DNA of 64,000 nucleotides from Halalkalirubrum salinum (lineage in GTDB: Archaea; Halobacteriota; Halobacteria; Halobacteriales; Haloferacaceae), in assembly GCF_005543295.1 (NCBI RefSeq), contig NZ_SRSG01000010.1, positions 130,362 through 194,361 on the forward strand, given 5' to 3'. Under the pieces are notes generated by a model. It had not been told where the DNA came from and did not search any database. It saw only the letters and a list, made by a program, of their open reading frames with translations. The position numbers were made by a program, and so were the translations under genes. The first letter of the stretch is position 1. The number at the start of each line of letters is the position of its first letter. Positions 49,670-52,797 of the stretch are shown piece by piece.

Positions 49670-50152
49670 ATGACTGTTGTCAGCGTCTCGATGCCCGAGG
49701 AACTTCTCGAACGGATCGATCGCTTTGCGGACGAACACGGCTATACCGGCCGCAGCGAGGTCGTTCGTGAGTCCGCACGGAACCTACTTGGGGAGTTCGA
49801 GGACAAACGCCTCGAGGATCGAGACCTGATCGCAATCGTGACGGTTCTTTTCAATTACGAGACGACGAGCGTCGAAGAGCGGATGATTCGGCTCCGACAC
49901 GAACACGAAGGACTTGTCGTTTCGAACTTCCACAGCCACGTCGGGAATCACTACTGTATGGAGCTTTTTGTTCTCGAAGGCGGACTCGAGGATATCTCGA
50001 CGTTTGTCGGAAAGGTACGGGCGACCCAAGAAACACTCACCGTCGATTATTCGGTGATGCCGGTCGACGATTTCGGTCCGTTTGCGTCTGAGATGAACAG
50101 CACACACGGCCACGATCACGATACCGCAGACCAATCGACACAAACAGAGTGA
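49670..50152 (+). CDS. nikR: NikR nickel-responsive regulator
   Basis: Protein of 160 residues. An N-terminal ribbon-helix-helix domain ([20 protein letters not shown], then [16 protein letters not shown]) is followed by an ACT-like metal domain. The nickel ligands of NikR are present with exact spacing in [11 protein letters not shown] (His, His and Cys corresponding to E. coli 87, 89 and 95). A His-rich tail (HGHDHD) may add metal affinity. A TATA-like element about 24 nt upstream suggests a leaderless mRNA. Nickel uptake genes are not adjacent, but an SBP of the family that includes NikA lies 0.9 kb away. Confidence 0.88.
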
Positions 50153-50158
50153 GACCGA

Positions 50159-51004
50159 TCAAGAGCGGGCTTCGGCTGGCTCGTCTGCAGTCGACGAACG
50201 GCCGATGAACGAACCAGTCTTTACGTAGCGCCGAGCGCCCTCGACTGAGACGACCGCGAGGACGATTCCGGCGATCACATCGAGTAGCCAGTGGATACCG
50301 AGATACATCGTCGAAATGAAGACGCTGACCGCCAGCACGATCGAGATCCACAGCCAGATCGGATACTCTCGTCGGGTATGAAATGCTAACAGCGCGACAG
50401 TCGCTGACAGTGACGTGTGCAGTGAAGGAAACACATTCGTTGGGACGTTGACCGACCGCGTGAGGAACTGAAACTGCGGATACGTATCGAACAGCAACGA
50501 CTCGACGAGACCTGGGCCAAACGAGTTTCGCGGACCGTACGCAATGAATATCAGATAGCATATCAGTCCGAGGCCGTAATTCAGCGTGTACGCGAGGACC
50601 AGGCTTCGAAAGTGCGTCTGGTCAGACAACGAAAGGTACGCCAGAAACGGGAAAATCAGCAAAAACCCGTAACCAAACACGTAGATGTATGAAAAGTACG
50701 CAGTAAGCAGTGGCGTCGCAAGCGACTGAATGTAGATGACGACGCCGCCCTCAATCTGCCTGATGAGCGGTGTGATGTTCCAACCGAACACCCACGAGAG
50801 GTTTTGCGTCGCGTCGCGAATCAACCCATTGGTTACGAGCACGACGAGAAGGACAGCGATGAGATGCTTCGCATCGAGCAGTCGGGGAATGGCCTCTTTT
50901 CGGAGTTCGAGCAGTCGCGCAGGACCGATAAACGCGATCGAAGCAACGAGACACGCTGAGACGATGACGATCGCGACCTGAGTGAGTACAGATACTAATC
51001 CCAT
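50159..51004 (-). CDS. PAP2-superfamily membrane phosphatase/transferase (Aur1-like)
   Basis: Polytopic membrane protein of 281 residues with about seven helices. The PAP2 catalytic blocks are NVFPSLHTSLSATVALLAFH (about 190-209) and TMYLGIHWLLDVIAGIVLA (about 233-251). The wider arrangement resembles inositolphosphorylceramide synthase-like PAP2 proteins, which act on lipid phosphates or transfer lipid head groups. Its ATG overlaps the stop of the upstream SBP gene by one base, so the two are co-transcribed. Its substrate is unknown. Confidence 0.82.
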   Translation of the reverse strand: MGLVSVLTQVAIVIVSACLVASIAFIGPARLLELRKEAIPRLLDAKHLIAVLLVVLVTNGLIRDATQNLSWVFGWNITPLIRQIEGGVVIYIQSLATPLLTAYFSYIYVFGYGFLLIFPFLAYLSLSDQTHFRSLVLAYTLNYGLGLICYLIFIAYGPRNSFGPGLVESLLFDTYPQFQFLTRSVNVPTNVFPSLHTSLSATVALLAFHTRREYPIWLWISIVLAVSVFISTMYLGIHWLLDVIAGIVLAVVSVEGARRYVKTGSFIGRSSTADEPAEARS

Positions 51005-52797
51005 TAGCGATTCCTCACGACGAGTTCGTCCTCATCGTTGAACTGAAAGCCGTGTTCAGTAAACTGTTCTCTGGCCATCGTGACGTTTAGTTCACCGGAC
51101 CCGTCGTCGAAGAAGGGAACGATGGGATCGCGTCCATCCCACTCAAGCGACGGCGCGAGCCACTCGGTTCCAGCAACCGGACTTGTGATCGGCTCTCCAA
51201 AATCATCGGTCACATCCGCAACGAGTGCAGCCTTGTCAAGCAGTTGTGCAACGGTACGTCGAAAGTGGGGATTGCCAAGCGGCGATCGACGCGTATTGAA
51301 TCCGAGATGGTAGAATCCGTGTGATGGGCTGACGATGAGGTCGAGCGCAGATTCTTCCCTGATCCGAGGGATAACGCCAGGACCGAGTGTCGAAAGCGTC
51401 GCGTCTGCATCGCCGATCGAGACCAACTCAACCGCGCTGCTGTCTGTACCTGCCAGTTGAATCTCCAATCGATCAAACGCAGGCCCAGACCCATACGGCT
51501 CAGGTATTGTTGTTTCGCGGCCGTCAACGAGAAAATGTTCGTCGAACAGTTCGAATGCGGCGCGTTCGCCATCAGTCGCCGATTCGAATCGAAGCGGACC
51601 ACTTCCGACGGGTTCGGGGTTGTTCCACACAACTGCTTCGGTTGTTTCGCTGTTGACTTCAATCCCGGCGATCGTCGCAGGGCCAGTCTTGTCAGCCCAG
51701 ACGTGTTCGGGGAGTAGTGGGACGGTGAGCGCAGTCGGCGCGATCTCACGACTCACATCGTCGAAGGAAATTCTGGCTGACCTATCAGATTCAACGACGA
51801 CATCGGAAACAAGCGAGGAGCGCCCACGGTATTTTGATGTCGGGATCGGATCCTCGGCATTTCCAAGCGACGTGTCCGTGAGGAACTGGTAGGTAAACGC
51901 GATATCATCAGCGGTGATCTCGGTCCCATCGTGCCACGAGAGATCCGGGCGAACGCTAACAGTCGCTTCGACCCCGTCGTCACGCCGATCCCAGTCAACA
52001 GATTGGGCGAGCCACGGGATCAGTTCGTCGCCATCGCGCCTAGTGAGTGGATCGTAGAGCAGTCCGATAATCGCGCCGTGCCGTCGGAACTCCGCGGCGA
52101 TCGGGTTCCGGTTGACCGTAATCCGTTGGTCATTACTCGCCAGCCGGAGGGTGTCTGTCTCATCGTCAACACGGGTAATCCCCAATAACCCGAGCGGAGC
52201 GGTTGGCCGGACTGGATTCCACTCATCAAATTGGTCGGTCCGAATTGCCGTCAGTTGATCAATGAGTGCGATCGGAACGAACGGCGCAGTCCGTGCGAGA
52301 TGTTCTTGCAGGTCGAAGACAGTCTCACGGCGTTGGCCACCGCTCTGTGCGCGTTGGGCCTCAAGGAGATCGTTACATTCGAGATTGGTGAATCCGAATG
52401 GATTCTGCCACCCGGGCTCAGCGTCGAACATTGAGTGCGACAACGGGTAGAGTGCGTCGGGATCGAACTCAAACTGTTCGGGAAATTGGCCGACGTAGAT
52501 ATCGAAATTGTGGTTGATGAGGACCTGTCGGTAGAACTCCTCGGGTTCCAGTGGCGTGAGCTGCGCGTCAATGCCGACCGCATTCAGTGACTCAACGAGT
52601 CGGTTCGCAGTCGCGAGCCCAAAGGGAGCGGCGTCACCAGGGATCGTCTTGACGTCGAGTGAGAGCTGTTCAGGACGGTCGCGGCCGGCAACATTTCGAG
52701 CTTGGCGGACGCAGCCAGCGCTTGCGAGTACGCCGAACGCACCGCCGGCTGCGAGGAGCGATCGGCGAGTCAGCGTGGAGGATAGTGCGTTCGACAT
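51004..52797 (-). CDS. Oligopeptide/nickel-family substrate-binding lipoprotein with apparently permuted lobes
   Basis: SBP family 5 lipoprotein of 597 residues. The N-terminal RRSLLAAGGAFGVLASAGC is a Tat signal with a lipobox. Residues about 45-205 look like the end of a normal family 5 protein: NRLVESLNAVGIDAQLTPL, NFDIYVGQFPEQFEFDPDAL, LECNDLLEAQR and ARTAPFVPIALIDQLTAIR. Residues about 215-597 look like its beginning and middle: IIGLLYDPLTRRDGDELIPW, VRPDLSWHDGTEITADDIAF, VTVPLLPEHVW-like and GFYHLGFNTRRSPLGNPHFR. They stop where the first segment would normally follow. This is a circular permutation in outline. No permease or ATPase genes adjoin. It overlaps the PAP2 gene by one base. 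Confidence 0.8.
   Translation of the reverse strand: MSNALSSTLTRRSLLAAGGAFGVLASAGCVRQARNVAGRDRPEQLSLDVKTIPGDAAPFGLATANRLVESLNAVGIDAQLTPLEPEEFYRQVLINHNFDIYVGQFPEQFEFDPDALYPLSHSMFDAEPGWQNPFGFTNLECNDLLEAQRAQSGGQRRETVFDLQEHLARTAPFVPIALIDQLTAIRTDQFDEWNPVRPTAPLGLLGITRVDDETDTLRLASNDQRITVNRNPIAAEFRRHGAIIGLLYDPLTRRDGDELIPWLAQSVDWDRRDDGVEATVSVRPDLSWHDGTEITADDIAFTYQFLTDTSLGNAEDPIPTSKYRGRSSLVSDVVVESDRSARISFDDVSREIAPTALTVPLLPEHVWADKTGPATIAGIEVNSETTEAVVWNNPEPVGSGPLRFESATDGERAAFELFDEHFLVDGRETTIPEPYGSGPAFDRLEIQLAGTDSSAVELVSIGDADATLSTLGPGVIPRIREESALDLIVSPSHGFYHLGFNTRRSPLGNPHFRRTVAQLLDKAALVADVTDDFGEPITSPVAGTEWLAPSLEWDGRDPIVPFFDDGSGELNVTMAREQFTEHGFQFNDEDELVVRNR

Follow-up and report, generated by a model that had tools for sequence, protein, structure and literature searches.

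The question raised by this locus is whether a haloarchaeon, Halalkalirubrum salinum, encodes a solute-binding lipoprotein whose N- and C-terminal parts have changed places within one gene and, if so, what such a protein would do. The gene lies in a stretch of 64,000 nucleotides, referred to here as the window, and is read as one intact open reading frame (ORF) from position 52797 to 51004 on the minus strand, a strand not given in the earlier note that had claimed a swapped order within an intact frame. The product, P0001 (window 51004-52797), is 597 amino acids long and is almost certainly a natural circular permutant of the ABC-type solute-binding protein family 5 (cluster C, which includes DppA, OppA, and NikA). 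The reading that best accounts for all observations, to which a probability of roughly 0.6 is assigned, combines this permutation with the usual two-lobe fold and with a role as partner of a PAP2-type membrane enzyme encoded by the adjoining gene.

Order of the family 5 segments in P0001

P0001 begins with a Tat-type lipoprotein signal peptide (TRRSLLAAGGAFGVLASAGC; residues 1-29, window 52711-52797, minus strand) that ends in the lipobox Cys29. Its residues R11, R12, G28, and C29 are invariant or nearly so across 31 homologues, bearing out the Tat lipobox that had been noticed earlier in the translation. Membership in family 5 is indicated by the Pfam model PF00496, which the protein matches with 135.7 bits (gathering cut-off, 32.4; E 2.9e-39 for the whole protein). 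Residues 258-591 correspond to positions 1-285 of that model, while the N-terminal segment alone corresponds to positions 302-363 (E 1e-3); the two segments have permuted (302-363 before 1-285) and not normal coordinates.

Because PF00496 spans just the middle of family 5 proteins, a longer profile of 545 positions was built from 21 archaeal and bacterial family 5 proteins of normal order, none of them permuted. Residues 62-196 of P0001 aligned with profile positions 393-528 (47.6 bits) and residues 240-593 with positions 65-372 (154.9 bits). The usual succession of N-terminal, middle, and C-terminal parts is thus replaced by one in which the C-terminal part comes first. On the minus strand of the window, the normal C-terminal part (residues ~46-196, profile ~377-528) now occupies positions 52210-52662 at the N-terminal side, and the normal N-terminal and middle part (residues ~240-593; PF00496 1-285, profile 65-372) occupies positions 51019-52080 at the C-terminal side. 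The gap between the two profile stretches (residues ~197-239, window 52081-52209) represents the joint of the old C-terminus with the old N-terminus. The assignment of residues 45-205 to the normal C-terminal portion in the earlier note was upheld by the profile match, although the match is clearest at about 46-196 and residues 197-239 belong to the joint; residues from about 215 to 597 do correspond to the normal N-terminal and middle portions, as had been claimed. The second segment ends at profile position 372, where the first would continue, and the remainder of the profile is found only in front of it.

If P0001 is a permutant, rotating its sequence should restore a continuous match to the normal family, and such a rotation scan was performed on the mature protein. 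The score rose from 155.1 bits in the natural order to a peak of 210.9 bits for start residues ~204-222, with a continuous match to profile positions 66-528. Comparable increases were obtained for P0002, a second permuted protein of the same genome (214 to 261 bits), and for proteins from Nitratireductor (200 to 282 bits) and Ketogulonicigenium (190 to 254 bits). Rotation gained 47-82 bits across these four permuted proteins; a normal-order control peaked unrotated, and the swapped signal was absent from every normal-order protein tested. Chance similarity of the N-terminal segment was ruled out, as that segment alone scored 52.3 bits against a maximum of 8.0 bits among 659 scored shuffles. 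Together, the profile coordinates, the rotation scan, and the shuffle test establish the permutation at the level of sequence.

The weak E value of the N-terminal segment in Pfam alone (1e-3) might suggest instead a complete family 5 protein of normal order with an additional N-terminal domain, perhaps derived by duplication, that resembles the C-terminal part. This is very improbable: the match behind residue ~215 stops at about position 372 of 545 rather than completing a family 5 fold, no second copy of profile 377-528 follows the main part in any of 73 permuted proteins, and the total length corresponds to just one family 5 protein. More remote still is an assembly, frame, or pseudogene artefact in which two gene pieces were joined by chance, since the same order and cut recur in intact frames in many independently sequenced archaeal and bacterial genomes.

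Cut site, predicted fold, and probable position of the lipid anchor

A survey of homologues found the permuted order in 73 distinct proteins, all of which have the same cut. The cut falls after the helix with the pattern A..LL.EAGY ('AEAGY') and before the next strand. Relative to the normal-order profile, permuted homologues run from ~377 to 528 and then from ~62 to 372: the first stretch starts at position 381 (median; range 346-423; n=73), the second ends at position 372 (median; range 338-380; n=73), and about 45 residues (median of the 73 proteins) separate the two.

Aligned with OppA (1b05), the permuted profile has its break near residue 356. Domain III of OppA comprises residues 270-486, and domain I contains the two natural termini (PMC6305025), in agreement with the earlier statement that family 5 termini share one lobe. 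Because the break falls inside domain III, the new termini would be in lobe 2 and the old termini, in lobe 1, would be joined by the linker. The alignment and the published domain limits thus suggest that the lipid anchor has been shifted from lobe 1 to lobe 2.

AlphaFold2 modeled P0001 with a pLDDT of 85.9 and a pTM of 0.83 (31 aligned sequences), with residues 40-597 mostly confident; values for P0002 were 77.3 and 0.77 (14 aligned sequences). The 50 best Foldseek matches of the PDB were family 5 type proteins, including NikZ, TM1223, AppA, and DppA, with alignments of ~400 columns to targets of ~500 residues and TM-scores of 0.4-0.5, values that come from a sequential aligner and are not proof of permutation. 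Such modest scores are to be expected when a sequential alignment can span only one of the two swapped pieces, and also from lobe movement. The model is consistent with P0001 folding as the usual two-lobe flytrap. Profile searches with either branch of the permuted proteins gave no solved structure of permuted order among their 60 best matches.

P0001 therefore resembles DppA, OppA, AppA, and NikA (PF00496, cluster C) in homology over nearly its whole length, in its lipoprotein anchor, and in its predicted flytrap, and differs from them in the exchange of its N- and C-terminal parts and in the probable placement of the anchor on lobe 2. The earlier note knew of no described case. This stands for family 5, for which no permutant was found in the literature searched, a scope with most subscription journals outside it; for solute-binding proteins at large it does not, since Tp0684 (TpMglB-2) of Treponema pallidum, a glucose-binding protein, has been described as a circularly permuted member of cluster B ('Cluster Bc') (PMC4990184). 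Like P0001, Tp0684 is a natural permutant tethered as a lipoprotein, but it is a type I, cluster B protein with another cut, and the Pfam and PDB matches of P0001 are to family 5 and cluster C. The difference in family and cut marks an independent permutation event. Tp0684 is predicted to be the binding protein of a glucose importer, and no lipid-enzyme partner is mentioned in the text consulted.

Distribution and origin of the permuted proteins

Strong P0001-type matches (E below 1e-35) were detected in 96 of 146 genomes of the host's class, about two thirds; among the matches listed, most are colinear over nearly the full length, and the others appear as a front or a back portion because the search divided them. 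Three P0001-type copies contain one in-frame stop each and may be decaying (G124:C13:58212-60005, G166:C1:2805546-2807279, and G259:C1:448170-449900). Outside the class but within the phylum, the P0002 matches listed begin near residue 215-275, where those of normal-order proteins should begin, and the proteins fetched from there do have normal order. In bacteria, colinear matches of the permuted type were found in 10 of 289 Alphaproteobacteria genomes sampled (a further match is a contig-edge fragment), in 2 of 199 Actinomycetota, and in 1 of 201 Chloroflexota, with the order checked on fetched loci. Plasmid records of Nitratireductor, Microvirga, Neorhizobium, Roseomonas, Maritalea, and Ketogulonicigenium also display this permuted order. 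Public annotation gives these proteins no name more specific than 'ABC transporter substrate-binding protein'.

A tree of 98 proteins, calculated with the pieces restored to normal order, placed the permuted proteins on one side of a single branch with moderate support (SH-aLRT 88), and the permuted state required 1 change versus 28.7 in shuffles. A weakly supported tree of the N-terminal and middle part by itself likewise required 1 change. With just the short C-terminal piece (133 columns), 6 changes were required and the single clade was not resolved, but a test did not reject the one-clade tree (p-AU 0.66). The tree and the common cut site are most simply explained by one permutation event; the patchy spread among bacteria suggests later horizontal transfer.

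The permuted clade comprises two branches, an importer-type branch (29 rows of the tree) and a branch detected solely in haloarchaea that includes P0001 (34 rows; support 100) on a stem of 0.93 changes per column. The importer-type branch is present in haloarchaea and thinly scattered over Alphaproteobacteria, Actinomycetota, and Chloroflexota. Like DppA and OppA, its members sit in dpp-type operons: a DppB-type permease gene lies directly downstream in 27 of 33 cases, P0002 among them, and in each of the 6 remaining loci the downstream sequence examined extends 1.5 kb at most. In the annotated operons of this branch, genes for two permeases and two ATPases are accompanied by genes for a hydantoinase/oxoprolinase, an M20 peptidase, or a creatininase in the vicinity. 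P0002 (L088:8350-10092; contig C17:82349-84091) heads a complete operon of this kind with two permeases and two ATPases. Based on the adjoining DppB-type permease and the operon layout, the permuted proteins of this branch are probably working importer components. Genes for enolase-superfamily, luciferase-like, and peptidase proteins are located near the P0002 operon. In haloarchaea, a deep sub-branch (L078, L081) has longer permuted importer-type proteins, in frames of ~650-660 residues, that adjoin DppB.

The PAP2 partner gene and the proposed role of P0001

The P0001 gene and the next gene share one base, at the stop codon of the former and the start codon of the latter (TAATG), and because of this overlap the two are probably translated together. 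The downstream gene (window 50159-51004, minus strand) encodes a 281-residue membrane enzyme of the PAP2 group of lipid phosphatases and phosphotransferases, of the PAP2_3 or inositol-phosphorylceramide-synthase-like type, with matches to PF14378 (PAP2_3; E 2.9e-18) and PF01569 (E 3.9e-12), and its relatives are annotated as inositol phosphorylceramide synthase. With PSLH at 193, GIHWLLD (in LGIHWLLD) at 236-242, and several hydrophobic stretches, the protein displays the PSxH and HxxxD motifs and the multi-pass membrane character of the PAP2 superfamily. On its far side lies a convergent CopG/NikR-type regulator gene (window 49670-50152, plus strand), with its end 7 bases away from that of the PAP2 gene. 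Two near relatives (L126, L142) have this neighbor too, but it was not found in the other regions examined, leaving a link to nickel unsupported.

Association with PAP2 extends across the P0001 branch. A PAP2 gene on the same strand adjoins 38 of 40 branch members, whereas none of the 40 has a same-strand DppB neighbor; in the wider regions, PAP2 is present in 17 of 18, and a dpp operon is arranged with the gene in 0 of 18. Unlike DppA, OppA, AppA, and NikA, P0001 and its branch do not have the linked permease and ATPase genes of family 5 systems. Among the 146 genomes, 95 have both PAP2 and a P0001-type protein, 1 has the binding protein alone, and 1 has PAP2 alone (Fisher p 1.2e-36, a statistic that ignores shared ancestry). 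This pairing shows functional linkage, not physical contact.

Several loci of the branch depart from the common layout. PAP2 was not found in the examined DNA of two of them (L020 and L022, in genomes G148 and G177), and a second P0001-type copy is present elsewhere in each of these genomes. In one haloarchaeal family, tandem arrays occur (L134, L135) as binding protein, PAP2, binding protein or as the binding protein-PAP2 pair twice. In G181 (L034/L143), the P0001-type gene is flanked by a divergent DppB-like gene and a convergent DppC-like gene, the sole case of permease-like neighbors seen in the branch.

A precedent for a family 5-like protein acting outside transport is LpqW of mycobacteria (PDB 2grv), a lipoprotein suggested to regulate membrane lipid synthesis (PMC3229680). 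Residues 57-103 of P0001 show a weak local similarity to residues 420-466 of LpqW, where, unlike in P0001, the matching stretch is C-terminal, as in the normal order. LpqW has been linked to PIM/LAM mannosyl transfer, whereas the P0001 branch is paired with a PAP2 gene; this gene pairing may at most hint at an LpqW-like regulation of a lipid enzyme by P0001.

The conserved pairing, the lack of a linked permease, and the LpqW precedent make it likeliest, at about even odds, that P0001 is a partner of the PAP2 enzyme in ligand binding or regulation. Under this proposal, the haloarchaeal branch would no longer feed an ABC permease; P0001 would have an extracellular ligand, either a polar solute or a lipid head group, and would serve or regulate the adjoining PAP2-type enzyme as a substrate-presenting or sensing subunit. 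A fuller scenario, in which the permutation moved the anchor to the opposite lobe and one branch then became the extracellular ligand-binding subunit of a PAP2 enzyme, is put forward more tentatively.

The next likeliest role, though a distinctly less probable one, is that of an orphan importer component with the same permuted fold, which would dock on ABC permeases encoded elsewhere while PAP2 removes a phosphate from the ligand at the surface of the cell, ahead of uptake. Family 5 proteins without a permease of their own can share one, the same genome has several dpp-type operons (L088, L089, L090), and the sister branch shares operons with DppB/C/D-type genes; however, the PAP2 pairing is conserved across haloarchaeal families with no permease linked, and the long stem of the branch suggests changed constraints. 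Haloarchaeal binding lipoproteins such as BasB and CosB act as chemotaxis receptors, and P0001 could likewise be a lipoprotein sensor, of chemotactic signals or envelope stress for instance, with PAP2 as no more than a co-regulated neighbor, but the regularity of the PAP2 pairing makes this improbable.

Circular permutants are uncommon in nature, and few known transport proteins are as common as the family 5 binding proteins. P0001 is no single oddity but belongs to a clade spanning two domains of life with one cut site, which amounts to a natural experiment on which of the two lobes has to bear the anchor and on the tolerance of the flytrap for new termini. Some two thirds of the haloarchaeal genomes surveyed (96 of 146) encode a member of the PAP2-linked branch, which points to a surface function that can be tested directly in culturable haloarchaea. 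If P0001 does act as the partner of the PAP2 enzyme, the pair would constitute a two-part lipid-head-group system of a new kind in haloarchaea.
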